A stretch of 60,009 bases of DNA from Catenulispora pinistramenti. Lineage in GTDB: Bacteria > Actinomycetota > Actinomycetes > Streptomycetales > Catenulisporaceae. The stretch spans positions 1 to 60,009 of the forward strand of contig NZ_JAAFYZ010000041.1 in the NCBI RefSeq assembly GCF_018274385.1. The letters are read 5' to 3'. Below, piece by piece: positions 3,486 to 14,169 of this stretch; within the stretch, counting starts at the first letter, position 1; each line of letters starts with the position of its first letter. Below the pieces are notes generated by a model that ran no database searches, was not told the DNA's origin, and worked only from the letters and a program-made list of their open reading frames with translations. The position numbers were made by a program, and so were the translations under genes.

Positions 3486-4457
3486 TCAGGGAACGCCGGG
3501 CACGATCGCCGAGCCTGCCGGGTCCGCCGAGCCCGCCGAGCCCGCCGCGTAGGCGACCGCTTGCTCCCACGACGGTTGCGCGGCCGTGCCGCCGACCTCC
3601 CGCGTGGACAACGCCCCGCACGCGCAGCCGATAGCGAGTGCCTGGTCCAGGTCGTCGCCGTTCAGCACCGCGGCCAGGAATCCGGCGTCGAAGCTGTCGC
3701 CGGCGCCAACTGTGTCGACCGGGACGAGCGGGGTGAGGCGCGCGTTGTGGAGTTCGGTGCCGGTGCGGGCCGTCGCTCCGTCCCGACCGCGTTTGACGAC
3801 CGGTGTGACAACGCCCGCTTTGACGAAGCCGGCCAGCGCTGCGTCCACGGTCGCGGTGCCGGTCAGGGCCAGGGCTTCGGCCTCGTTGGGGAGGACGTAG
3901 TCGCAGGCTTCGAGCAGGCCGGGGGTCAGGTGCCAGTGGCCGGACGGGTCGTGGTTGGTGTCCAGGGAGCAGGTGGCATCGGCGGTGCGGAACAAGTCGG
4001 GCAGGCGGGCGGCGAGGATCGGTTGGAGGAAGTAGGACGCGGCGTGGATGTGCCGGGCCGGGGGTAGCTGCCGCGGGTCGAAGGCGGCCGGGTCGAACGC
4101 GGCCAGGCAGCCGGGGGCGGTGAGGATGGCGCGGTCGCCGTCGGGGCCGTCGAGGCAGATGGTCAGCGCGGTGGGCAGGTCGGGGTGGCGGGTGACGGCG
4201 GCGATGTCGACGCCGGCCGAGGTCAGCACGTCGAGGACGAAGTCACCGGCGCCGTCGCGGCCCACGACGGCGGCCAGCGCGGTGGACAGGCCCAGGCGCG
4301 CGGCGCCGTGCGCGACGATGGCCGCGGACCCGCCCAGGGCCAGCGCGCCGGACGACACCAGGGTCTCGGCCTGGCCGTAGGGCGGGACCGGCGGGGCGCC
4401 GGCGAGCAGGACGTCGGGGTTCGCGTCGCCGACGACCAGGAGGTCGAAGGTGGTCAC
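3486..4457 (-). CDS. PfkB-family carbohydrate kinase
   Basis: A 323-residue ribokinase/PfkB kinase, last gene of the minus-strand sugar operon. The N-terminal VVGDANPDVLL strand and the DTVGAGDSFDAGF signature (GAGD at 251-254, Asp254 the catalytic base) are intact; ALGGSAAIVAHGAARLG is the substrate-binding Gly-rich segment. Start is GTG at 4457; 23 further in-frame codons upstream run through a tandem repeat and are not family-like. The substrate is not readable. In context (GH4, SIS, ABC importer) it may phosphorylate a released hexose or hexosamine, or act like a tagatose-6-phosphate kinase. The C-terminal tail is Ala/Gly/Ser/Pro-rich. Confidence 0.88.
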   Translation of the reverse strand: MTTFDLLVVGDANPDVLLAGAPPVPPYGQAETLVSSGALALGGSAAIVAHGAARLGLSTALAAVVGRDGAGDFVLDVLTSAGVDIAAVTRHPDLPTALTICLDGPDGDRAILTAPGCLAAFDPAAFDPRQLPPARHIHAASYFLQPILAARLPDLFRTADATCSLDTNHDPSGHWHLTPGLLEACDYVLPNEAEALALTGTATVDAALAGFVKAGVVTPVVKRGRDGATARTGTELHNARLTPLVPVDTVGAGDSFDAGFLAAVLNGDDLDQALAIGCACGALSTREVGGTAAQPSWEQAVAYAAGSAGSADPAGSAIVPGVP

Positions 4458-4479
4458 CGCGGTCCTCGCACGGACCCGA

Positions 4480-4575
4480 GATCCGGATCGCCCAGGCCGC
4501 CGCGCACGACCGCCATCAGATCCCAATCACTCAGGCCGCCACACACGACCGCCATCAGATCCGGATCGCCCACGC
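4480..4575. repeat. 39-bp tandem repeat between pfkB and GH4 genes
   Basis: Two full 39-bp units (4480-4518 and 4519-4557) and a partial third begin with GATCC and end with CGACCGCCATCA. Units 1 and 3 start with the 10-bp palindrome GATCCGGATC; unit 2 is diverged there (GATCCCAATC). The array occupies most of the 142-bp gap between GH4 and the kinase gene within one operon. It may be a neutral minisatellite or an RNA-level control element. Confidence 0.7.
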
Positions 4576-4599
4576 CGCCGCCCCCGGCTGCCATCCCCC

Positions 4600-5928
4600 T
4601 CACCGAGCGCCGCCCGCGGTCAACGGACTGCGCCGCAGCGGCTCCGGCAACACCTCGCGGTGCGCCTCGACCATCGCGTCGCACAACGTCCAGATCTGCT
4701 CGACGGTCAGCGCCGCGGCCGTTGCCGGGTCGGCCATCGCCGCGTGCCGGATGTGCCGCGGATCGCCCTCCACCGCCGCGGCGACCACCAGGTCGACCAC
4801 GTTCAGGAAGTGCCGGTTCGGCGCCGCCAGCTGCACCGGTAGTTCCCCGACGTAGTGCGGGTGCACGCCCAGCCGGTCCAGGGTGGCCGGGACCTCGACC
4901 GCCGCGCCCGCGGGCAGGTTGGTGATCAGGCCGGTGTTGGCCGTGTTCACCTGGATCGTGCGCTGGGTGCCGGTGACCAGGCTGTGGATCACTTGCGGGG
5001 CGTACTCCGCGGCGTCGCTCTCCCACCCGTCGGCCGGCGCGGCACCCTCGGCCACCGCGGCCCGCAGCGCCGCGTACTCGGCCAGGTTCTCGGCGCTGAT
5101 GGCCACGTAGTCGCCGACCGGGATCCGCAGCCGGGCGATCTCGCTGTCGTGCCCGAGGTACCAGGGCACGTATTCGGACGAGTGCTCGCTGGTCTCGGTC
5201 GGGTAGTAGCCCAGCCGCCGGTACATGTCGACGCGCACCCGGCGCGCCAGGTCCGGCCGGGCCGCGATCGCGGCGTCCAGCTCCGGGTACAGGTCCCGGC
5301 CCAGATGCTGCCAGCGCAGGATCCAGGCCTGGTGGTTGACGCCGGCGGACAGGACGTCGACCTCGTCGTGCGGGACGCCGATGATCTCGCAGAGCCCGCG
5401 CACTGTCCAGTACACCGAGTGGCACAGGCCCGCGACCTTCAACCGCGGCGCGATCCGGCTCAGGTACTGGATGTTCATGGCCATCGGGTTGGTGTAGTTC
5501 AGCAGCCAGGCGTCCGGGCAGACTTCGGCCATGTCCGCCGCCAGGGCTTGCAGCACCGGGAAGGTGCGCAGGGCCCGGAAGATGCCGCCGACGCCGAGGG
5601 TGTCGGCGATGGTCTGCCGCACGCCGGCGGCGGCCGGGACCTCGAAGTCGGTGACGGTGGCCCGGTGGCCGCCGACCGCGATCATGTTGACCACGACGTC
5701 GGCGCCGGCCAAGGCGGCGCGGCGGTCGGTGGTGGCGGTGACCGTCGGCTTGGCGCCGAGGGTCTGCGCGGCGCGGTCGGCCAGGGCGGCGGCGACCTGG
5801 AGGCGCTCGGGGTCGATGTCGTGCAGCGCGATGGCCACGCCGGACAGCTCGGGGAAGGAAAGGATGTCGTGCAGCAGCTGCCGGGTGAAGACCACCGAGC
5901 CGGCGCCGACGAAGGCGATGCGGAACAC
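4600..5928 (-). CDS. GH4 family NAD-dependent glycosidase, alpha-galactosidase-type motif
   Basis: A 442-residue family 4 glycoside hydrolase, the NAD+/Mn2+-dependent enzymes that act by redox-assisted elimination. IAFVGAGSVVF (4-14) is the Rossmann NAD site, LLNYTNPMAMN (142-152) the conserved Asn-Pro motif, and CHSV (169-172) with GVNHQAW (His199) the metal-binding motif. In the published GH4 subgroup scheme, as I recall it, CHSV marks alpha-galactosidases, as against CHEV (alpha-glucosidase), CHGx (alpha-glucuronidase) and CNVP (6-phospho-beta-glucosidase). No PTS is nearby; import is by the ABC system just upstream, so an unphosphorylated alpha-linked galacto-configured substrate is the best guess. 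The start ATG at 5928 lies 13 bp after the SIS gene stop, so the two are co-transcribed. Confidence 0.9.
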   Translation of the reverse strand: MFRIAFVGAGSVVFTRQLLHDILSFPELSGVAIALHDIDPERLQVAAALADRAAQTLGAKPTVTATTDRRAALAGADVVVNMIAVGGHRATVTDFEVPAAAGVRQTIADTLGVGGIFRALRTFPVLQALAADMAEVCPDAWLLNYTNPMAMNIQYLSRIAPRLKVAGLCHSVYWTVRGLCEIIGVPHDEVDVLSAGVNHQAWILRWQHLGRDLYPELDAAIAARPDLARRVRVDMYRRLGYYPTETSEHSSEYVPWYLGHDSEIARLRIPVGDYVAISAENLAEYAALRAAVAEGAAPADGWESDAAEYAPQVIHSLVTGTQRTIQVNTANTGLITNLPAGAAVEVPATLDRLGVHPHYVGELPVQLAAPNRHFLNVVDLVVAAAVEGDPRHIRHAAMADPATAAALTVEQIWTLCDAMVEAHREVLPEPLRRSPLTAGGAR

Positions 5929-5941
5929 GCGGGATTCTCTT

Positions 5942-6922
5942 TCAGGATCGGGCGGCGGAGGAGGAAGCCGGGGACGCGGAAACCGAGGGCGACGAAGCCC
6001 GGGATGAGGAGTCCTGGGATGAGGAGGCCTGGGCCGCGGCGGCGTCGTGCGGGCGCAGGATCACCGAGCGGGTCAGGTGCCGCGGGGCGTCGGGGTCCAG
6101 GCCACGGGCCGCGGCCAGTTCCAGGGCCAGGCGCTGCGCCTGGATCAGCGAGGCGAGCGGGTCAAGGTCCTGCCGGACCCACAGCCCGCCGGTGACGCCG
6201 ACCTGCTCGGCCAGGCCCTCGGGCGCGGCGCCGAACATCCAGACCGCCGACTGCTCGTCGGTGATCGCGATCGGGCCGTGCCGGTAGTCCATGGCCGGGT
6301 ACGACTCGGACCACGCCAGGGCCGCCTCCCGCATCTTCAGCGCGGCCTCGGCGGCCAGGCCGGTGGTCCAGCCCGCGCCCAGGAACGTGAACTGGACGCG
6401 GTCGGCGGCCCCGGCCGGAAGCGGCTCGCTGACCGCCCGCTGAGCGTCGGCGATGGCGCCGGACAGGTCTTCGCCGAGATGCGCGCGCAGCAAGGCCAGC
6501 GTGGTGGTCGCGAACCGGGTCTGGACCACCGAGCGCTCGTCGGCGAAGTCCAGCACGACCGACGTGTCGGCGAGCGCCGGCGCCGGCGAGTCGGCCACGC
6601 CGGTGATCAGCGTGGTCGGCACCGTGGCGGCGGCCAGGACGTCCAGGATCTCGGTGGTGGTGCCGGACCGGCTCAGGGCCAGTACCCGGTCGTAGGCGCG
6701 GCCGGCGGGCAGTTCGGAGGCGGTGAAGGCGTCGGTCTCCCCGGCTCCGGCGGCCTCGCGCAGGCCGGCGTAGGCCTGGGCCATGAACCAGGAGGTGCCG
6801 CAGCCGACGACGGCGACGCGCTCGCCGGGCTCGGGCAGGCCGGCCGCCGACGGGGCCAGGTCGGCGGCCCGCTGCCAGCTGCGCGGCTGGTCGGCCAGTT
6901 CGGCGGTGACGAAGGAAGGCAT
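5942..6922 (-). CDS. SIS-domain sugar isomerase/deaminase (AgaS/GlmS-C type)
   Basis: A 326-residue protein with two SIS domains: the first holds VAVVGCGTSW (36-45) and SRSGTTTE (84-91), the phosphosugar-binding serine loop; the second begins FTFLGAGWTTG (178-188) and includes EAALKMREAALAWSESYPAMDYRHGPIAI, typical of GlmS C-domain and AgaS proteins. Members isomerise or deaminate amino-sugar 6-phosphates. With the PfkB kinase and GH4 enzyme it probably handles a hexosamine phosphate released from imported sugar. ATG at 6922 has GGAG 9 bases upstream. The frame is open upstream through a six-residue repeat (ALLETD). The C-terminal 33 residues are Ser/Ala-rich and look disordered. Confidence 0.85.
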   Translation of the reverse strand: MPSFVTAELADQPRSWQRAADLAPSAAGLPEPGERVAVVGCGTSWFMAQAYAGLREAAGAGETDAFTASELPAGRAYDRVLALSRSGTTTEILDVLAAATVPTTLITGVADSPAPALADTSVVLDFADERSVVQTRFATTTLALLRAHLGEDLSGAIADAQRAVSEPLPAGAADRVQFTFLGAGWTTGLAAEAALKMREAALAWSESYPAMDYRHGPIAITDEQSAVWMFGAAPEGLAEQVGVTGGLWVRQDLDPLASLIQAQRLALELAAARGLDPDAPRHLTRSVILRPHDAAAAQASSSQDSSSRASSPSVSASPASSSAARS

Positions 6923-6936
6923 GGGACTGGGACTCC

Positions 6937-7026
6937 GTTCGAGCAAGGTTTCTGGTTCGAGCAGGGTGTTCGTTTCGAGCAGGGCATCTGTTTCGAGCAG
7001 GGCGTCTGTTTCCAGCGCGGTGTCTG
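6937..7026. repeat. 18-bp tandem repeat (five units) upstream of SIS gene
   Basis: Five consecutive 18-bp units (starting 6937, 6955, 6973, 6991 and 7009) share the core TTCGAGCAGGG..TCTG. They fill the space between the malG-like stop and the SIS start. On the minus strand they are in frame with the SIS gene and read as a Leu/Glu-Thr hexapeptide repeat. No good start codon lies upstream of them, so they are probably untranslated spacer, but an extended N-terminus cannot be excluded. Confidence 0.75.
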
Positions 7027-7035
7027 TTCGCCGGT

Positions 7036-7851
7036 TCAGCCTTTGAGCCCGGACATGCTCATCGTCTGGACGAACTGCCGCTGGGCGATGAGGAAGCCGA
7101 TGATCAGCGGCGCGGTCGCCACGACGTTGCAGGCCATCAGCTCCTGCCAGTCGATGTGGTGCGCGCCCTGGAAGTTGACCAGGCCGAGCTGGATGGTGAA
7201 CTTCGACGGGTCGTTGATCGCGATCAGCGGCCACAGCAGGTCGTTCCAGGAGTTGAGCAGCGTGAACACCGCCAGCGTGGCCAATGCCGGCCGGGCCAGC
7301 GGCAGCACGATGCGGAAGAAGACGCCGAAGGTCGTCAGGCCGTCGATGCGTCCGGCCTCCTCCAGGTCCTTGGGCAGCGACAGGAAGAACTGCCGCATCA
7401 GGAACACACCGAAGGCCGAGGTCAGGAACGGCACGAAGGCCGCGCCGAGGGTGTCGATCAGGCCCAGGTGCGAGAACATGAAGTAGGTCGGGATCATCAG
7501 CATCTGGGTCGGGATCATGATCGTGGCGACCAGCGTCACGAAGGCCACGGTCCGGCCGCGGAAGGACAGCCGGGCATAGGCGTAGCCGCCCAGCGAGCAC
7601 AGCACCAGGTGGCTGACGATCGCGATGCCGGAGACGATCGCCGAGTTCAGCATCCACCGCCCGACCGGGGCGTCCCGGAACAGCCGCACGTAGCCGCTGA
7701 TGTGCAGCGCGGACGGGATGAAGCGCGGCGGGAAGCGGTTGATGTCGGCGTTGGAGGTGAACGAGGCCAGGAGCATCTGCACCAGCGGCAGCAGGAACAC
7801 CAGGGACAGCGGCATCAGGAGCAGGTGCCAGCGGCTGAATTTCCGGCTCAT
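7036..7851 (-). CDS. ABC sugar transporter permease (MalG type)
   Basis: A 271-residue inner-membrane permease of the carbohydrate uptake CUT1 family with about six hydrophobic segments (first at residues 8-28). The EAA loop EEAGRIDGLTTFGVFFRIVLPLARPA contacts the ATPase. The start ATG at 7851 overlaps the upstream permease stop by 1 nt (TGATG), so translation is coupled. It forms the membrane channel with the MalF-type partner. No ATP-binding subunit gene is in the operon, so a shared MsiK-like ATPase elsewhere is expected, as is usual in actinomycetes. Confidence 0.92.
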   Translation of the reverse strand: MSRKFSRWHLLLMPLSLVFLLPLVQMLLASFTSNADINRFPPRFIPSALHISGYVRLFRDAPVGRWMLNSAIVSGIAIVSHLVLCSLGGYAYARLSFRGRTVAFVTLVATIMIPTQMLMIPTYFMFSHLGLIDTLGAAFVPFLTSAFGVFLMRQFFLSLPKDLEEAGRIDGLTTFGVFFRIVLPLARPALATLAVFTLLNSWNDLLWPLIAINDPSKFTIQLGLVNFQGAHHIDWQELMACNVVATAPLIIGFLIAQRQFVQTMSMSGLKG

Positions 7852-8861
7852 CAGAAGGCCTCGATCTTGCTGCGCCGGGCGTAGGCGAACAGCCCGAGGG
7901 TGATGATCAGGGTGCCGCCGAACAGCGTGTAGGCGACGGCGGACCCGTATCCGTAGCGGGACAGGTTGAACGCCTGGTTGTAGATGAAGTACACGATGGT
8001 CTGGCTGGCCCCGAGCGGGCCGCCGTGGGTGGTGGTCAGCACCAGCTCGAAGATCTGCAGGACCGAGATCGTCTCCCAGACGCCGACGAACACGGTGACC
8101 GGGGCCAGGCTGGGCAGGATCACGTGCCGGAACTGCTGCCAGCGGTTGGCGCCGTCGATCCGGGCCGCCTCCAGGCAGTCGGTCGGGATGTCCTGGAGCG
8201 CGGCGAGATAGACGATGACGGAGAACGCCAGGTCGGTCCACAGGTAGATCAGGGCGATGACCCACATCACCTCGTGCCGGTCGGCCAGGAAGCCCTGCTG
8301 CGGCAGGTGCAGGACCCGCAGCAGGTTGTTCGCCAGGCCGAACTGCTGGTCGAAGACGAAGTTGGCGAGGATGCCGGTGGCCGCGGCCGAGACCACCAGC
8401 GGGACGAACAGCGCGGTCCGGTAGAAGGAGATGAAGCGGATCTTCCGGTTCAGCGCGATCGCCAGGAACATGCCGAGGCACAGGACGACCGGGACGTACA
8501 GGACGGTGAACAGGACCGTGTGGTTCACCGCCGACTTGAAGTCTGCGTCCTTGAGCAGCAGGCGGTAGTTGTCCCAGCCGATCTGGCGGGCCGGGGTCAG
8601 ACCGTTCCAGTGCTCGCGGGAGATCAGGAACGCCCAGGCCGCCGGGAACAGGGTCAGGGCCAGGATGATCAGGGTCGCCGGGGCGGCGAAGGACCAGCCG
8701 GTGAGGTTGGCGACGACGCGCCGGCGGCGCGCGGTCCACTTGGGTTTGGCCGCCGGGGCGGACTTGTCAGCGGACCCATCCGGCATGCCGGGACGGTCGC
8801 GCCGCCGGACGACGCCGGCGCCGGACTTCTCGTGATCGGAGATCAGGATTCCGTGTTTCAT
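7851..8861 (-). CDS. ABC sugar transporter permease (MalF type)
   Basis: A 336-residue CUT1-family permease. A charged cytoplasmic N-terminus (about 50 residues, Arg/Lys-rich before GWSFAAPATLIILAL) precedes roughly six membrane segments; the EAA loop is EAARIDGANRWQQFRHVILPSLAP. Start chosen at ATG 8861, 11 bp after the binding-protein stop; an internal Met (MPDGSADKS) could be an alternative start. It lies directly downstream of the binding-protein gene and its end overlaps the MalG-type gene by 1 nt. Together they would import an oligosaccharide presented by the lipoprotein. Confidence 0.92.
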   Translation of the reverse strand: MKHGILISDHEKSGAGVVRRRDRPGMPDGSADKSAPAAKPKWTARRRRVVANLTGWSFAAPATLIILALTLFPAAWAFLISREHWNGLTPARQIGWDNYRLLLKDADFKSAVNHTVLFTVLYVPVVLCLGMFLAIALNRKIRFISFYRTALFVPLVVSAAATGILANFVFDQQFGLANNLLRVLHLPQQGFLADRHEVMWVIALIYLWTDLAFSVIVYLAALQDIPTDCLEAARIDGANRWQQFRHVILPSLAPVTVFVGVWETISVLQIFELVLTTTHGGPLGASQTIVYFIYNQAFNLSRYGYGSAVAYTLFGGTLIITLGLFAYARRSKIEAF

Positions 8862-8872
8862 CGGCGCGACCC

Positions 8873-10216
8873 TCAATCCGCTTGAGCCAGCGCGACGTCG
8901 GCGGCCTTCGCCGCGTCCTTCAGCGCCGATTGCGGATCGCCTTGGCCTTGGAGCACCTTGGCGATCGCCTGGCCGACGGCTTGGGACAGGCCGACGTAGC
9001 CGGGGACCGTGGGCCGGGCCGTGGTGGCGTTCTTCAGGTTGTCGAAGAGCGTCTGCGCGCCCGGGTACTGCTTGGCGTAGTCCTGGAACTCCTGGCTGTC
9101 GGACTCGCTGCTGCGCAGCGGCAGGTTGCCGGTGGCCAGGTTGAACTTGGGGTCGACCTGGGCCGAGGTCAGCCACTGCGCGAACTGGTAGGACCAGTAG
9201 GCGCGGTCGGCGTCGTGGTGGTCGTACAGGGTCCAGATGTCCGGGCCGGAGATGGTCTGGTGGTTGGTGCCGTCGAAGGACGGCAGGTAGGTGACGCCGT
9301 AGTCCAGGTTCGCGGCGACGTTGTCCGAGAGCTGCCACGGACCGCTCATGATCATGCCGATCAGGCCGGACTTGAACAGGTCGGCGTACTTCTGGTCGTC
9401 CTGCGAGAGGTACACGGACTTGTCGTCCACGGCCATCTGCCGCAGGAACGTCAGCGCCGCCACCCCGGCCGGGGAGTCGAACTCGGACTTGGTGCCGTCG
9501 GAGTTCACGACCGTGCCGCCCTTCTGCCACAGCAGCGGCCAGAAGTGCCAGGTGGTGTCCTCGGTGCCGGAGACGGAGTAGGCGGTGCCGTAGACGTTCT
9601 TCGCCGGGTCGGTGAGCTTCTTGGCCGCGGCCCGGAAGTCGTCCCAGGTCCAGGTGTTGGTCGGCGGGGCCACCCCGGCGGCGGCGAACAGCTTCTTGTT
9701 GTACATCAGCGCCAGGTTGTCCACGACCGCCGGGAAGCCGATGACGTGGCCGTTGGGGGTGGCGGTCTGGCGGGCGGCCGGCGGGAACTCGTCCCACTTC
9801 ACCGCCGGGTCCTTGACCTTGTCGGTGAGGTCCAGGGTGCGGCCGGACAGCTGCATCTGGGTGGCCCAGCTGCCGAAGTTGTAGGAGATGTCCGGGTAGG
9901 TGCCGCTGGTGAAGGCGGCGGTCAGCTTGGGCAGCAGCTGGTCGGTGGTCGGCGCGCCGGGCGAGATGTCGATGGTGACGTTCGGGTGCGCGTCGTGGAA
10001 CTGCTTGGCCAGCCCCTCCAGCAGCTTCTCCGGGGCGACGTCCTGCCCGGTCCACACGGTGATGGTGACGGCTTTCGCCGGGTCCGCGGGCGCCTTGGAG
10101 GAGGACGACGAGGACGACGAGCAGGCGGACGTCAGCGCCAGCGCGGCGACGGTGAGGGCCGCTGCGGCCGGGCGCAGGACGGCGCCCGCCGTTCTTGCGC
10201 CGTTTCTTGGATGCAC
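8873..10216 (-). CDS. Extracellular sugar-binding lipoprotein of ABC transporter
   Basis: A 447-residue solute-binding protein (SBP family 1). The N-terminus has an Arg-containing n-region, a hydrophobic core and lipobox LTSAC with lipidation at Cys32, followed by a polyserine linker; the mature domain has the VTITVWTGQDV first strand and KLTAAFTSGTYPDISYNFGSW of sugar-binding proteins. Start is the GTG at 10216 because AGGAGG-like sequence (GGAGG) lies 7 bases upstream; the longer frame to 10264 lacks one. It is the first gene of the operon running through both permeases, SIS, GH4 and PfkB, and would present an oligosaccharide at the membrane surface. Ligand unknown; aminosugar oligomer is my contextual inference. 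Confidence 0.92.
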   Translation of the reverse strand: MHPRNGARTAGAVLRPAAAALTVAALALTSACSSSSSSSSKAPADPAKAVTITVWTGQDVAPEKLLEGLAKQFHDAHPNVTIDISPGAPTTDQLLPKLTAAFTSGTYPDISYNFGSWATQMQLSGRTLDLTDKVKDPAVKWDEFPPAARQTATPNGHVIGFPAVVDNLALMYNKKLFAAAGVAPPTNTWTWDDFRAAAKKLTDPAKNVYGTAYSVSGTEDTTWHFWPLLWQKGGTVVNSDGTKSEFDSPAGVAALTFLRQMAVDDKSVYLSQDDQKYADLFKSGLIGMIMSGPWQLSDNVAANLDYGVTYLPSFDGTNHQTISGPDIWTLYDHHDADRAYWSYQFAQWLTSAQVDPKFNLATGNLPLRSSESDSQEFQDYAKQYPGAQTLFDNLKNATTARPTVPGYVGLSQAVGQAIAKVLQGQGDPQSALKDAAKAADVALAQAD

Positions 10217-10292
10217 GGGAAGACCTCCAAGACGAGGGAGAAGGAGATGGGGGGTGGGGGTCATTCAAGGCCCGCGCACACCGAACTCACAA

Positions 10293-10340
10293 GATCCGCG
10301 CAGGTTTCGCTCACCACCGGTGCGCGAAGACGCGCGGATC
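10293..10340. promoter_or_regulatory. Inverted repeat upstream of sugar-uptake operon
   Basis: GATCCGCGC (10293-10301) and GCGCGGATC (10332-10340) are perfect 9-bp arms separated by 30 bp; TTTCGC and GCGAAG add partial inner symmetry. It lies 77 bp upstream of the binding-protein start, in the 422-bp divergent region shared with deoR, so it is a candidate operator for the operon. The rest of 10217-10638 holds no gene I can support. Confidence 0.4.
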
Positions 10341-10578
10341 CGGGCGGCGGCAAGTGCTTGGCAGCGTCCGGGGGCACGCGTAGCATCAGGGGGCGTCGCA
10401 GTGGAAAGGCGACGTCAGAGGTACGCCCATCCGGTATGCCGGCGCCCGCCGCGAGTCCGGACCGAGTCGCCAGGACCGCGCACGACGCGTGCGGTTTCCG
10501 AGGCGGGGTCGTGCCCACCAGCACTGTGGAGCTCACCGTGAGCCTCATCGATGCCCGCTCGTTGATCCATCCCCGGCT

Positions 10579-10604
10579 ATCAGTCAGTCGGCGATCAGTC
10601 AGTC
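10579..10604. promoter_or_regulatory. Direct repeat upstream of deoR-type gene
   Basis: ATCAGTCAGTC occurs twice (10579-10589 and 10594-10604), 15 bp apart, ending 34 bp before the regulator start. DeoR-family proteins often bind short direct repeats, so this may be an autoregulatory site. Confidence 0.45.
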
Positions 10605-10638
10605 CCGGACCGCGTTCGTTCGGGTAGCGGATCCGGCG

Positions 10639-11454
10639 ATGACTGAGTCTCAATTGCAGAACACGCACACACCGACCATGCACCGCTCCGACCGCGTCAC
10701 GGCGATCCTGGACCGGCTGGCCTACGGCGGCACCGTGGACGTGGCCACGGCCGCGCGCGAACTCGGCGTCTCGGTGGCGACCATCCGCCGCGACCTGACG
10801 CTGCTGGACGACCAGAACCTGCTGGTCCGCACGCGCGGCGGCGCCGTGGGCCGGGACATCGCCTACGAACTCCCGGTCCGCTACCGCGACAACCACGGCC
10901 GCGCCGCCAAACAGGCCATCGCCCGCATGGCACTGCGCGCCCTGGCCCCGGGCCGCCACGTGGTCGCCGTCAACGGCGGCACCACGACCAGCGAGGTGGC
11001 CCGCCTACTGGCGACCCGCACGGAGCTGACGGTGGTCACCAACGCCCTGAACATCGCCGGCATCCTGGTCAACCGCCCGAAGGTGAAACTGGTGGTCACC
11101 GGCGGCGTGGCCCGCTCCAACTCCTACGAGATGGTCGGCCCCTGGGCCGAGACCATCGTGGGCCGCTTCAACGTCGACACCGCCTTCATCGGCATCGACG
11201 GCATCAGCGCCGCCAGCGGGCTGTCCACCCACGACGAGGTCGAGGCACACACCAACGCGGTCATCATCGGCCGCGCGCAACGCGTCGTGGTGGTCGCGGA
11301 CGGATCGAAGATCGGGCGCACGCACCTGGCGCACGTGGTCGGCCTGGACGCGATCGACCAGCTGGTGACCGACTCGAGCGCGGACCCGGCGGAGTTGCAG
11401 GCCATCGCGGCTCAGGGGGTGGCGGTGCGGATCGCTGAACCGGCGCGGCGGTGA
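10639..11454 (+). CDS. DeoR-family transcriptional repressor
   Basis: A 271-residue DeoR regulator. Residues about 15-70 hold the HTH with GGTVDVATAARELGVSVATIRRDLTLLD, the classical DeoR recognition segment; the C-terminal sugar-phosphate sensor has NGGTTTSEVAR, VVTNALNIA and GGVARSNSYEMVG, the phosphosugar-binding isomerase-like fold. ATG 10639 is chosen because the sequence before it (SAISQSR repeats) is not family-like; Met at 10678 is an alternative. It is divergent from the ABC-SIS-GH4-PfkB operon and probably represses it until a sugar phosphate accumulates. In enterobacteria the N-acetylgalactosamine regulator AgaR belongs to this family. The 3' end is followed by a near-copy of itself (see the repeat). 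Confidence 0.9.
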   Translation: MTESQLQNTHTPTMHRSDRVTAILDRLAYGGTVDVATAARELGVSVATIRRDLTLLDDQNLLVRTRGGAVGRDIAYELPVRYRDNHGRAAKQAIARMALRALAPGRHVVAVNGGTTTSEVARLLATRTELTVVTNALNIAGILVNRPKVKLVVTGGVARSNSYEMVGPWAETIVGRFNVDTAFIGIDGISAASGLSTHDEVEAHTNAVIIGRAQRVVVVADGSKIGRTHLAHVVGLDAIDQLVTDSSADPAELQAIAAQGVAVRIAEPARR

Positions 11455-11508
11455 GGTAGCGCGGCGGTGAGGCGGCGGTGCGGATAGCTGAACCGGCGCG
11501 GCGGTGAG
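11421..11508. repeat. 35-bp direct repeat duplicating the end of the deoR gene
   Basis: The last codons and stop region (11421-11455) recur at 11474-11508 with a single mismatch (ATCGCTGAAC versus ATAGCTGAAC), period 53 bp. The second copy lies after the stop. It looks like a recent local duplication. Confidence 0.75.
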
Positions 11509-11598
11509 AGGGCAATACTTCAAGCGCGGCGGCAGGTGGCGAGGCGGCCTGTGCGGCGCGCGATAGCAGGTAGCTGATGATCGGCGATCAGCTGGCTG

Positions 11599-11639
11599 CG
11601 ATCGGTCGCCAGCCCTGTTTCAGGGCTGGCGACCGATCG
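11599..11639. terminator. Perfect 19-bp stem hairpin, bidirectional terminator
   Basis: Arms CGATCGGTCGCCAGCCCTG (11599-11617) and its exact reverse complement (11621-11639) flank a TTT loop. It sits between the convergent deoR gene (ends 11454) and the beta-helix gene (ends 11662), 23 bp from the latter. No long T-run follows, as is common for actinomycete terminators. Confidence 0.75.
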
Positions 11640-11661
11640 ACCTTCGCCGTCGCCGTCCCGC

Positions 11662-13083
11662 TCAGCAGCTAGCGCTGAACTCGCTGTGCGCGTCCAATCC
11701 GGTCGCCGCCCGGTAGGCCGCGAAGCCGGTGTACGTCTTCGCCTGCCAGCCCCACCGCGCCGTGGTGGCAGTCGCCGCGGCGGCCGAGTAGCGGTTGCTG
11801 TCGACCGTGTCGCCCTTGCCCGAGGTGGAGCGCGCGACCGTGCCGATCAGCAGCGTGCCGGGGCCGGCGGCGCAGATGGTGTTGCCGGTGATCGTGTTGC
11901 CGCTTTCGTGGAACTGGATCAGGAACTCCGGTGAGCCGTCGTGGTCGGTGTTGTTGTCGCGCAGCATGTTGTCGGTGAACGTGTTCGCGGACGAGGTGCC
12001 GGTCTGGACGCCGCCGCAGTCCTGTTGGCCGTCGCAGTAGCCGCCGGTGGTGATGCCGACGTAGCGGCTTTCGGTGACCGTGTTGTGGTCGACGTTCACG
12101 TGGTCGGCGGCGCCGCGGGCGTTCTCGGCGGCCACCTCGATGCCGATGTCGTCGGCGTGCGCGGTGTTGCCGGTGATGGCGATGCGGGTGCCGCCGTCGA
12201 CGTAGAGGCCGTCGGCGCAGTTACACCAGCCGCTGGCCGACCAGTAGGCCGGGTTGCCGGCGGACTTGATGTTCTCGACCACGTTTCCGCTGATCACGCC
12301 GTTGCGGGCGCGGTTGAGATCGGTGTAGCGGTAGGCGGGCGGCAGGGTCTGCTCGTAGCCGATGGCGTCGATGCCGATGTTGTTGTCGTCGTGGATCCGG
12401 TTGCCGGTGATACGCCAGCCGTCGACGTTGCCGTTGACCACGACCGACTCGCTGGCGCCGAGGACGAGGTGGTCCACCTCGTTGTCCGCGATATTCAGGG
12501 TGCTGATGGACCGCTTCGGGTTGTCGCCGTACGCGGCGATCCCGTGCGCGTTCATCTCCATGCTGCCCAACGTGCCGTTGTCGTTGCCCATGGCGTGCAC
12601 GTGGTTGCCGCTGACGGTGACGCCGGCATCGCCGCCGTGCACGTAGATGCCGATCGGCATCGCGGTGATGTCGCTGGTGCGGTAGCCGGTGATGTCCAGG
12701 CCGTGGACGGTGACCGAGGTGCTGTCGGCGATGTCGACCATCGCGGAGCGGCCGCCGGTCGGGACGGCCAGCTTGGACCCGTCCAGGACGGGGTGCTCGC
12801 CGGGAGCGGCGGTGACGGTGATGTCGGTGACGCCGTGCAGGCTGATCCGCTGCGCATACGTACCGCCGCGCACGACGACCGCACCGCCGCCGGAGGAAGA
12901 CAGCGCGGTGATCGCATGCTGGATGGTGGCGAACGGCGCGCCTTCGGTACCGGCCGCGGAGTCGGATCCGTTGGCGGCGACGTAGTACGTGGAGGTGCCG
13001 GCCGCGTGTGCGGTCGCCGACAGCAAGACGGCTGCCGGGCCGAGCGCGCAAAGGGCCGCGAGGGCCAGGGCTGGTGGCTTCAT
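11662..13083 (-). CDS. Secreted right-handed parallel beta-helix protein
   Basis: A 473-residue secreted protein. A Sec signal peptide (MKPPALALAALCALGPAAVLL, cleavage near residue 27 after AHA) is followed by YYVAANGSDSAAGTEGAPFATIQHAI, the usual opening of pectate-lyase-like beta-helix proteins, and then by many repeats of the type I-x-GN-x-V/I (ITGNRIHDDNN, ISGNVVENI, ITGNTAHADD, VDHNTVTES, ITGNTI). Such folds are carbohydrate lyases, hydrolases or epimerases; Cys pairs (WCNCADG, YCDGQQDCGG) may be disulfides. No catalytic residues can be named with confidence. It is divergent from the GH114 gene with a shared 180-bp promoter region, so both may act outside the cell on the same polymer. 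Confidence 0.85.
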   Translation of the reverse strand: MKPPALALAALCALGPAAVLLSATAHAAGTSTYYVAANGSDSAAGTEGAPFATIQHAITALSSSGGGAVVVRGGTYAQRISLHGVTDITVTAAPGEHPVLDGSKLAVPTGGRSAMVDIADSTSVTVHGLDITGYRTSDITAMPIGIYVHGGDAGVTVSGNHVHAMGNDNGTLGSMEMNAHGIAAYGDNPKRSISTLNIADNEVDHLVLGASESVVVNGNVDGWRITGNRIHDDNNIGIDAIGYEQTLPPAYRYTDLNRARNGVISGNVVENIKSAGNPAYWSASGWCNCADGLYVDGGTRIAITGNTAHADDIGIEVAAENARGAADHVNVDHNTVTESRYVGITTGGYCDGQQDCGGVQTGTSSANTFTDNMLRDNNTDHDGSPEFLIQFHESGNTITGNTICAAGPGTLLIGTVARSTSGKGDTVDSNRYSAAAATATTARWGWQAKTYTGFAAYRAATGLDAHSEFSASC

Positions 13084-13139
13084 ACCGCCCAGAGCGTGCG
13101 GTCCGGGCCTGGCGGAGTCAACGAAAACTCAACCGGATT

Positions 13140-13161
13140 GAGCGATTCGGCCCAGTCGCTC
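13140..13161. promoter_or_regulatory. Short inverted repeat between beta-helix and GH114 genes
   Basis: GAGCGA and TCGCTC form 6-bp arms around 10 bp in the 180-bp divergent region. It is weak evidence of a shared regulatory site; no other element is clear there. Confidence 0.25.
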
Positions 13162-13263
13162 ACCGCCGCTGCGTGTTTCCCGCGCTCACCTCGACGCTGC
13201 GCGACGGCCGCTGCTAAGAATCGGCCCGAACACGAGAACGCCCCCACTTCTCGAGGAGGAATC

Positions 13264-14169
13264 ATGTCCCTGACTCCATCCGCCAAGCGCCTCGCGGCGG
13301 CGGCTGCCGGCCTGGCCCTGGCCGCCGTCACGACCGCCGTCCTGGCCCCGTCGGCCGGCGCCGCGCCGTCCACGGTCAGGCCGGCGGCGAGCGCCACGCC
13401 GGCCCTGCCGAGCCCGGTCTCCTGTTCCGACTGCTGGCAGCCGGACGTGCAGACGTCCTGGAACTGGGTCATCTCGACGGTGCCGACCGCGCCCTACCGC
13501 AATGTCCAGATGTACGACGTGGACGGCTTCAACAACACCGCCGCGAACGTCTCCGCCCTGCACGCGGCCGGTATCAAGGCCGTCTGCTACCTGTCCGCCG
13601 GCACCTATGAGAACTGGCGCCCGGACGCCTCGCAGTTCCCGTCCTCGGTCCTGGGCAGCGGCAACGGCTGGCCGGGCGAGAAGTGGCTGGACATCCGCGA
13701 GATCCAGAAGTCGAATAGCGTGCTGCGCACGATCATGGACGCCCGGCTGGACATGTGCCAGCAGAAGGGCTTCGACATGGTCGAGCTGGACAACGTCGAC
13801 GGCTACGCCAACAGCACCGGCTTCCCGCTGACCGCCGCCGACCAGCTCTACTTCAACGCGACCCTGGCCGACGACGCCCACTCCCGGGGCCTGAGCGTGC
13901 TGCAGAAGAACGACAACGAGCAGATCCCGCAGCTCCTGCCCTACTTCGACGGCGCTCTGAACGAGCAGTGCAACCAGTACAAGGAGTGCACCACCGCGCA
14001 GAACGGCGACTACGGCTACGACCAGTACGTCGCCGCCGGCAAGCCGGTGTTCCAGGCCGAGTACAACCTGGCGACGTCGAAGTTCTGCTCCGCCGACAAC
14101 TCGAACGACTTCAACGGCGTGCGGTTCGACCTCAACCTGGACGACAAGACGTTCGAACCCTGCCGCTGA
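13264..14169 (+). CDS. Secreted GH114 endo-alpha-1,4-polygalactosaminidase-like protein
   Basis: A 301-residue secreted TIM-barrel protein. The first 35 residues are a signal peptide (twin hydrophobic Ala/Leu core, cleavage near AGAA). Family GH114 motifs follow: SWNWVIS (65-71), VQMYDVDGFN (81-90), IKAVCYLSAGTYENWRPD (104-121), KWLDIRE (140-146) and GFDMVELDNVDGY (169-181), with Glu174/Asp176 and Asp179 in the expected active-site strand. The family cleaves alpha-1,4-linked galactosamine polymers, such as those in fungal galactosaminogalactan and Pel-like matrices. The GAGGAGGAATC Shine-Dalgarno lies just before ATG 13264. It is neighbour to an ABC importer, GH4, SIS and sugar kinase genes, which suggests a coherent uptake pathway. 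Confidence 0.85.
   Translation: MSLTPSAKRLAAAAAGLALAAVTTAVLAPSAGAAPSTVRPAASATPALPSPVSCSDCWQPDVQTSWNWVISTVPTAPYRNVQMYDVDGFNNTAANVSALHAAGIKAVCYLSAGTYENWRPDASQFPSSVLGSGNGWPGEKWLDIREIQKSNSVLRTIMDARLDMCQQKGFDMVELDNVDGYANSTGFPLTAADQLYFNATLADDAHSRGLSVLQKNDNEQIPQLLPYFDGALNEQCNQYKECTTAQNGDYGYDQYVAAGKPVFQAEYNLATSKFCSADNSNDFNGVRFDLNLDDKTFEPCR

Follow-up and report, generated by a model that had tools for sequence, protein, structure and literature searches.

A locus of Catenulispora pinistramenti predicted to serve utilization of galactosamine polymers

Introduction

What does an actinobacterium feed on when a secreted GH114 protein, an ATP-binding cassette (ABC) importer for sugars, a GH4 enzyme, an SIS-domain protein, and a PfkB-family kinase are encoded side by side? 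This question is raised by positions 3,486 to 14,169 of a 60,009-nucleotide stretch (the window) of contig NZ_JAAFYZ010000041.1, which is C346 in the 11.46-Mb genome of Catenulispora pinistramenti (handles beginning with G, C, and L are ours for genomes, contigs, and loci or stretches). The original prediction, made from the letters alone, proposed a route for galactosamine polymers. Our answer is that the locus probably does serve utilization of alpha-1,4-linked galactosamine polymers or oligomers, such as fungal galactosaminogalactan and Pel-like biofilm polymers. Comparative genomics supports this reading, and it is from comparative genomics that we infer every substrate, reaction, import step, and mode of regulation proposed below.

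The matrix polymers that molds and biofilm bacteria make include galactosaminogalactan and Pel. Hydrolases known to act on these polymers come mainly from the organisms that make them. The matches listed from the open-licence PMC literature included no pathway of an organism that eats them, no description of a galactosamine-polymer utilization operon, and no report of a GH4 galactosaminidase; this does not prove that none exists. According to PMC12054363, bacterial GH114 endo-galactosaminidases "remain elusive," and no sequence is available for a Streptomyces griseus galactosaminidase reported in 1975. GH114 has already been grouped with fungal-wall GH families through genome co-occurrence (PMC7922503).

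Results

The locus encodes a GH114 protein beside an importer operon

All nine genes that the original prediction named are present in the window (Table 1). Their order is PfkB, GH4, SIS, permease, permease, and substrate-binding protein (SBP) on the minus strand, followed by a divergent DeoR-family regulator (plus), a beta-helix protein (minus), and GH114 (plus). The minus-strand run reads as one operon because the gaps are small: 142, 13, 113, -1, and 11 bp from PfkB to SBP. For PfkB, the start at 4457 is likelier than that of the longest open reading frame, at 4526. Eight of the nine genes pass a Pfam cut-off, SIS barely (PF01380; 28.6 bits against 25), and the beta-helix gene passes none. 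These matches, together with synteny in genomes of the same genus, argue that the gene set is not due to chance. The full set, GH114 included, lies on one stretch in L093 to L096 and L098, and L097 stops, where its contig ends, inside the beta-helix gene, the GH114 of that genome (L114) lying at the end of another contig.

The window GH114 matches PF03537 at 275.7 bits (cut-off, 27), and its best solved relative is Ega3 of Aspergillus. Asp189 and Glu247 are the verified nucleophile and acid/base of Ega3, which is specific for de-acetylated stretches and carries out postsynthetic remodeling of the fungus's own polymer (PMC12054363). This pair aligns with D176 and E234 of the window protein, with a spacing of 58 in both when counted along the alignment, and the catalytic Asp and Glu are kept in all 86 GH114 rows compared. 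The protein, for which the original prediction had noted the active-site motif of the family, is predicted to be an endo-alpha-1,4-galactosaminidase. We also observed a second GH114 gene in the genome (G000:C663:33911-34564; L002, L116), which belongs to the other GH114 lineage and has no GH4-clade neighbor within the 14 kb read.

The importer genes have the CUT1-type arrangement, an SBP_bac_1 protein and two BPD permeases in one operon, with an 11-bp gap and a 1-bp overlap. By eye, the SBP has a lipobox-like stretch, LTSAC. The nine genes scanned in 3486-14169 include no ATPase gene for the importer; sugar ABC importers are known to share an ATPase of the MsiK type.

GH114 genes accompany the same GH4 clade in several arrangements

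We searched 99 genomes of relatives and drew tblastn maps of the loci; genes there were called with a script based on third-position GC content, and some frames are misdrawn (GH4 of L248 and an oxidoreductase of L094). Among the matches listed, a GH114 gene lies within 20 kb of 15 of the 19 GH4 rows that form a clade with the window GH4, versus none of 129 control rows (GH4 below 45% identity). The control rows include 47 with a GH114 gene on the same contig, the nearest at 188 kb. The clade rows lacking one within 20 kb are those of G001, where the contig ends, G012, G013, and G078. Two rows at 47 to 48% identity (G010:C361 and G013:C89) were placed in neither group, and the control supersedes an earlier one of 39 genes, which points the same way. 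Within the genus, no clade GH4 was found in 3 of 10 genomes: G002 (81% complete), G004 (90%), and G009 (99%).

Loci of the Streptomyces family (n = 10) carry a GH4 that is 62 to 65% identical to that of the window. Nine of them have an operon with the order GH114-SBP-permease-permease-(PfkB)-GH4, L106 being the exception, and the GH114 that starts these operons belongs to a different lineage from that of the window. A GH4 alignment scan gave at least 591 confirmed matches, the best 80 of which, all named actinobacterial loci, were read. GH114 is near GH4 in 29 of the 80, at 81 to 7,099 bp; two of the 29, L163 and L242, are apparently G006 and G067 again. These loci come from Streptomyces, Embleya, Actinacidiphila, Lentzea, Umezawaea, Amycolatopsis, Actinocrispum, Nonomuraea, Planotetraspora, Actinoallomurus, Hamadaea, and two metagenome-assembled genomes, and in L226 and L168 the two genes are on the same strand 81 to 114 bp apart. 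Co-occurrence of GH114 with the operon in relatives, the check that the original prediction had proposed, is found in each of these samples, so its stated refuting condition is not borne out.

In a quick tree, the GH4-linked GH114 proteins fall in two lineages divided by long starred branches. The linkage label changes 7 times on this tree, compared with a mean of 29 after shuffling, and starred branches force at least 4 of the changes. Because of these two lineages and the forced changes, it is unlikely that the GH114-GH4 linkage is one inherited accident; judged by these sequences, the toolset is assembled in several independent arrangements among relatives. At the level of whole genomes, GH114 is present elsewhere in 34 of 50 GH4-clade genomes without an adjacent copy (50 of the 51 such loci, L218 being left out), and it is present in 43 of 148 class genomes. 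We prefer adjacency as the measure because the samples compared differ in genome size.

Neighboring genes point to de-acetylated galactosamine

Which sugar would be released? In the 80 GH4 loci we found SBP in 74 and DeoR in 57. SIS is present in 38 and AgaS in 10, never both (any SIS-type gene, 48), and PfkB is present in 48 and a BadF/NagK-like kinase in 10, again never both. KbaZ occurs in 12 loci, a tagatose-6-phosphate-kinase-like PfkB in 21, a class II aldolase in 40, and any aldolase in 42. Fisher tests applied to these loci take no account of relatedness. By title, the loci with AgaS are from Mycolicibacterium or Mycobacterium without exception; all ten have BadF and KbaZ and run DeoR, (aldolase), KbaZ, AgaS, BadF, GH4, SBP, permease, permease, where the aldolase stands before or after DeoR or was not found. 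Loci of a sister genus (L099 and L100) likewise have KbaZ-AgaS-BadF and DeoR beside a GH4 81 to 82% identical to that of the window and its ABC genes. These genes are close to their Escherichia coli namesakes (AgaS, 45% identity in L099 and 43% in L193; KbaZ, 58% in L099). Since the window SIS and PfkB occupy the place that AgaS and the NagK-like kinase hold elsewhere, they likely perform the same two steps.

The Leloir genes galK and galT are in none of the 80 loci, and E. coli probes detected neither in any of 131 stretches, a set in which the GH4 loci are joined by stretches with a paralogous SIS, with GH114 only, with Spherulin4, or with the beta-helix gene. Probed in the same way, the deacetylase gene nagA is in none of the 131 and nagB is in one (L198). 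The choice of galactosamine as the sugar in the original prediction is supported by this absence and by the AgaS, KbaZ, SIS, and aldolase neighbors. AgaS has been proposed as a galactosamine-6-phosphate deaminase/isomerase (PMC3668189), and agaS without agaA has been used as a mark of the use of galactosamine (GalN) rather than N-acetylgalactosamine (GalNAc) (PMC5583593). With this precedent, the specificity of Ega3, and no local nagA, the picture of a de-acetylated imported sugar is self-consistent.

It is unlikely that GH4 and the importer instead handle N-acetylated or mixed GalN-GalNAc oligomers of the same polymer, with the deacetylase encoded elsewhere. Pel consists mainly of a GalN-GalNAc repeat (PMC9135694), a Spherulin4 operon adjoins the locus in three sister genomes (G003, G005, and G001), and two nagA-like genes, one at 37% identity, do lie outside the locus in C. 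pinistramenti; in E. coli, AgaA and NagA are interchangeable (PMC3668189). However, a nagA homologue is in 0 of 131 stretches, and Ega3 acts specifically on de-acetylated stretches (PMC12054363).

The GH4 clade differs from MelA at conserved positions

GH4 domains were confirmed by Pfam in the window GH4, which passes the NCBIfam model of MelA-type alpha-galactosidases (PRK15076; 563 bits against a cut-off of 486). It is 40% identical to E. coli MelA and has the identical CHSV motif, as the original prediction had noticed. The clade differs from E. coli MelA at 37 positions, each of them conserved in 97% or more of 81 clade GH4 rows.

These matches could mean that GH4 is an ordinary alpha-galactosidase, releasing galactose from galactosaminogalactan or plant alpha-galactosides while SIS and PfkB serve something else, and galactose does occur in the fungal polymer (PMC12054363). 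We regard this as quite improbable: galK and galT are missing from all 80 GH4 loci, and the AgaS, KbaZ, SIS, and aldolase neighbors fit an amino sugar. The galactosamine route encoded in the GH4 loci, with no galK, galT, or nagA, rather suggests that free galactosamine is the product and hence that the clade is an exo-alpha-galactosaminidase.

Other proteins stand beside GH4 in some loci. Secreted DUF4832 proteins (some with DUF4874) and fn3 proteins, possibly further hydrolases, adjoin a clade member in L196 (3366-9961) and a GH4 of 47% identity in L112 (1011-4748). A protein of about 350 residues (e.g., L197:3204-4265) is found in 12 of the 80 clade loci, one of which has GH114; that of L197, the sole one scanned, is an Amidohydro_2 protein.

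SIS, PfkB, and DeoR and the remainder of the pathway

The original prediction had called the SIS protein AgaS/GlmS-C-type. By model it is not of the AgaS type: it scores 28.6 bits on agaS_fam (TIGR02815; cut-off, 529.2) and is 26% identical to E. coli AgaS over 294 residues. Its best NCBIfam model is GlmD (NF041128), at 89 bits against a cut-off of 580, and among solved structures its best relatives are 2cb0, 2dec, and 1j5x, the last named glucosamine-6-phosphate deaminase. E199, H215, and R285 are invariant across 15 relatives. PfkB reaches the cut-off of none of the NCBIfam models listed. The best-scoring model for DeoR is AgaR (NF040755; 181 bits against a cut-off of 260), and it is 35% identical to E. 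coli AgaR.

The combination of SIS, PfkB, and ABC genes resembles that of loci for Amadori products (FrlB/FrlD-like). No deglycase model was listed for SIS, PfkB scores 71 bits on fructoselysine 6-kinase (cut-off, 247), and the linkage to GH4, GH114, AgaS, and KbaZ does not fit; we set this candidate aside.

A route to tagatose phosphates had also been predicted. SIS and PfkB are in the locus, and the candidates for tagatose-6-phosphate kinase and aldolase are unlinked to it. They lie on contig C229 (L117) of the same genome, in an operon that comprises DeoR, a paralogous SIS (61%), ROK, a 1-PFK/LacC-like PfkB, and a class II aldolase (38% identical to E. coli KbaY, the sole comparison). Genome-wide, an aga-type pathway can thus be put together from family matches: the window SIS with the tagatose-6-phosphate-kinase-like PfkB and the aldolase of L117.

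The beta-helix gene recurs in GH4 loci

The beta-helix protein has no Pfam family match. Its structure model is a right-handed parallel beta-helix (predicted template-modeling score, 0.84), and because lyases, epimerases, hydrolases, and tailspikes are all among the best fold matches, the fold leaves its reaction undefined; we dropped the fold as a guide to function. Of 296 class genomes, 5 carry the gene, C. pinistramenti among them. In two of the other four it lies inside the GH4 locus: L248 has SBP, permease, permease, and beta-helix with DeoR, GH4, SIS, and aldolase alongside, and L250 has DeoR-GH4-beta-helix-aldolase with BadF, AgaS, and ABC permeases divergent. It is outside a GH4 locus in L249 and in L251, in the latter beside a DeoR gene. 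A Nocardioides metagenome-assembled genome (L189) provides a fifth case, GH4-SIS-beta-helix-SBP-permease-permease. The gene therefore recurs in three distant GH4 loci (L248, L250, and L189), and the modeled protein is a candidate for a new family of polysaccharide-cleaving enzymes.

A Spherulin4 operon adjoins the locus in some relatives

Spherulin4 (PF12138) we take to be GH135, the family of Sph3, which is specific for acetylated polymer. In G003, G005, and G001, an operon beyond PfkB has the order SBP-permease-permease-GFO-Spherulin4 and lies tail to tail with PfkB; the gene call in L094 apparently joined a permease and the oxidoreductase into one gene. Actinacidiphila cocklensis (L239) has a Spherulin4 of 66% identity and permeases directly after GH4 on the opposite strand. 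In neither L239 nor L094 is Spherulin4 divergent from GH4 or PfkB; the genes meet tail to tail. Sph3 has been assigned to GH135 (PMC12054363). G008, whose GH4 is 97% identical, has its Spherulin4 beside SBP, permeases, and GFO on a different contig. As for GFO being GH109, we found only generic GFO_IDH_MocA matches; 2ixa, presumably GH109, is absent from the best 60 of 79 matches, and the structure model is poor (pLDDT, 51.7).

Spherulin4 also occurs in tandem with a type-A GH114 in L255 (3929-11315; G035) and its kin L256 and L257 (G047 and G063). In L255 the tandem is downstream of a DUF3492/GT4 glycosyltransferase, which we take to be PelF-type, with an NTP transferase and epimerases, and looks like a Pel-like biosynthesis locus; the neighbors in L256 and L257 are similar by gene starts only. 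Pel biosynthesis loci have been reported in actinobacteria (PMC7112168).

Regulatory region and linkage of the secreted proteins

A 29-base element between SBP and DeoR adjoins a promoter-like TTGGCA-17-TAGCAT, of which TTGGC and TAGCATC are identical in seven aligned genus copies. With up to 3 mismatches allowed, the window contains a single copy of the 29-mer, and the genome contains a single copy of the inner 20-mer. The element therefore defines no regulon. We compared the SBP/DeoR and beta-helix/GH114 intergenic regions in five genus copies, and the best shared words were within the range of 40 column shuffles. A common operator for GH114 and the ABC operon, and with it their coregulation, is not supported by this comparison.

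We find it very unlikely that GH114 and the beta-helix protein are independent neighbors (e.g., remodeling a Pel-like polymer of the cell's own) of an ABC-GH4 operon for another amino sugar: in the window both do lie outside that operon, no operator common to it and GH114 was found, and the three Streptomyces-family Spherulin4-GH114 tandems stand beside polymer-synthesis-like genes (annotated for L255 only), but in 9 of 10 Streptomyces-family loci the ABC-GH4 operon itself includes a GH114 of different lineage, the close same-strand pairs of L226 and L168 exist, and the beta-helix gene is in GH4 loci of other taxa.

Table 1. Features of the locus, in window positions
Feature	Position	Strand	Basis
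PfkB-family sugar kinase, predicted galactosamine 6-kinase	3486..4457	-	Pfam PF00294, 149 bits
GH4, CHSV branch; predicted NAD/metal-dependent exo-alpha-galactosaminidase	4600..5928	-	NCBIfam PRK15076, CHSV, neighborhoods
SIS-domain protein; predicted galactosamine-6-phosphate deaminase/isomerase	5942..6922	-	PF01380
ABC permease 2	7036..7851	-	PF00528
ABC permease 1	7851..8861	-	PF00528
SBP, probably lipoprotein; predicted oligogalactosamine receptor	8873..10264	-	PF01547/PF13416
Promoter-like TTGGCA-17-TAGCAT	10358..10386	+	Conserved in genus alignment
29-base element; candidate local DeoR operator	10410..10438	.	Identical in seven aligned genus copies
DeoR-family regulator, AgaR-like	10639..11454	+	PF00455/PF08220
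Secreted parallel beta-helix protein; predicted polysaccharide-cleaving enzyme	11662..13083	-	Predicted fold, no Pfam family
Secreted GH114, predicted endo-alpha-1,4-galactosaminidase, catalytic D176/E234	13264..14169	+	PF03537

Discussion

How would a locus for galactosamine polymers work? GH114 would act extracellularly and cut de-N-acetylated stretches, probably with the aid of the beta-helix protein. The SBP and the two permeases would import galactosamine oligosaccharides, a shared ATPase being assumed. Inside, the CHSV-type GH4 would remove galactosamine residues one by one through the NAD- and metal-dependent GH4 mechanism, PfkB would make galactosamine-6-phosphate, and SIS would deaminate and isomerize it to tagatose-6-phosphate. 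The tagatose-6-phosphate-kinase-like PfkB of L117 and the class II aldolase would finish the pathway. Acting in the intergenic region that it shares with the ABC-SIS-GH4-PfkB operon, DeoR would repress that operon.

Several observations weigh against this scheme. GH114 is absent from the stretch in 51 of the 80 GH4-clade loci (16 of the 80 being under 20 kb), 16 of 50 genomes of GH114-less GH4 loci have no GH114 anywhere, and the sister-genus genomes G012 and G013 have a GH4 at 81 to 82% identity but no GH114. A SIS-type gene is missing from 32 of the 80 loci. In the window, the SIS family models are weak, and R285 is Lys in the three solved relatives aligned (2cb0, 2dec, and 1j5x); this Arg-for-Lys exchange may mark a different substrate or mechanism. 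The window GH4 scores as an alpha-galactosidase by model. The lack of a local deacetylase is not proof of a de-acetylated sugar, because E. coli NagA can replace AgaA (PMC3668189). No operator common to the SBP/DeoR and beta-helix/GH114 regions stood above column shuffles, and the C. pinistramenti genome has no PF12138 (Spherulin4) match. Finally, GH4 adjoins a secreted DUF4832 protein in Asanoa L196 and secreted GH3 and GH64-piece proteins in Actinomadura L201; given this other secreted company, the substrates of the clade may include more than one galactosaminide.

The system is of a known kind, ABC-linked oligosaccharide utilization, to which the predicted GH4 activity and the candidate beta-helix family would be new. 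A bolder version, on which we are almost evenly divided and lean slightly against, is that the clade is the first GH4 exo-alpha-D-galactosaminidase, forming with GH114 and a new beta-helix polysaccharide-cleaving family a complete catabolic system for galactosaminogalactan and Pel, that soil actinobacteria put this system together several times, and that some species coupled it to a second ABC operon, with Spherulin4 (GH135-like), for N-acetylated stretches. If the galactosamine reading is true, it adds a predicted activity to GH4, gives a gene-level lead for the S. griseus galactosaminidase of 1975, and makes recycling of the fungal galactosamine coat in soil directly testable. The beta-helix protein and the two GH114 lineages would then be candidate biofilm-dispersing enzymes.

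How does this locus compare with known systems? It shares with the aga/gam regulon of E. coli (AgaR, KbaZ, AgaS, and KbaY) a DeoR-family regulator, a SIS deaminase/isomerase, and a tagatose-bisphosphate aldolase, and GH4 loci of relatives carry near kin of AgaS and KbaZ. However, E. coli imports monomers by a phosphotransferase system, whereas this locus has ABC import, GH4, a separate kinase, and a secreted GH114, and its SIS is only 26% identical to AgaS. The window GH114 has the family and the catalytic Asp and Glu of Ega3, yet Ega3 remodels the polymer of the fungus itself, and the gene of the window protein has those of an importer and of catabolic enzymes for neighbors. MelA-type alpha-galactosidases match the window GH4 in CHSV motif, model score, and overall identity but differ at the 37 clade-conserved positions, and no galK or galT is near the clade GH4. 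The archaeal chitin route comprises an exo-glucosaminidase, a glucosamine kinase, and GlmD. That route is alike in its oligo-hexosamine, exo-glycosidase, kinase, and SIS deaminase, GlmD being the best model for the window SIS; it is unlike in that the predicted substrate of the window locus is galacto- and alpha-configured and in that the window SIS is far below the GlmD cut-off and has Arg for Lys.

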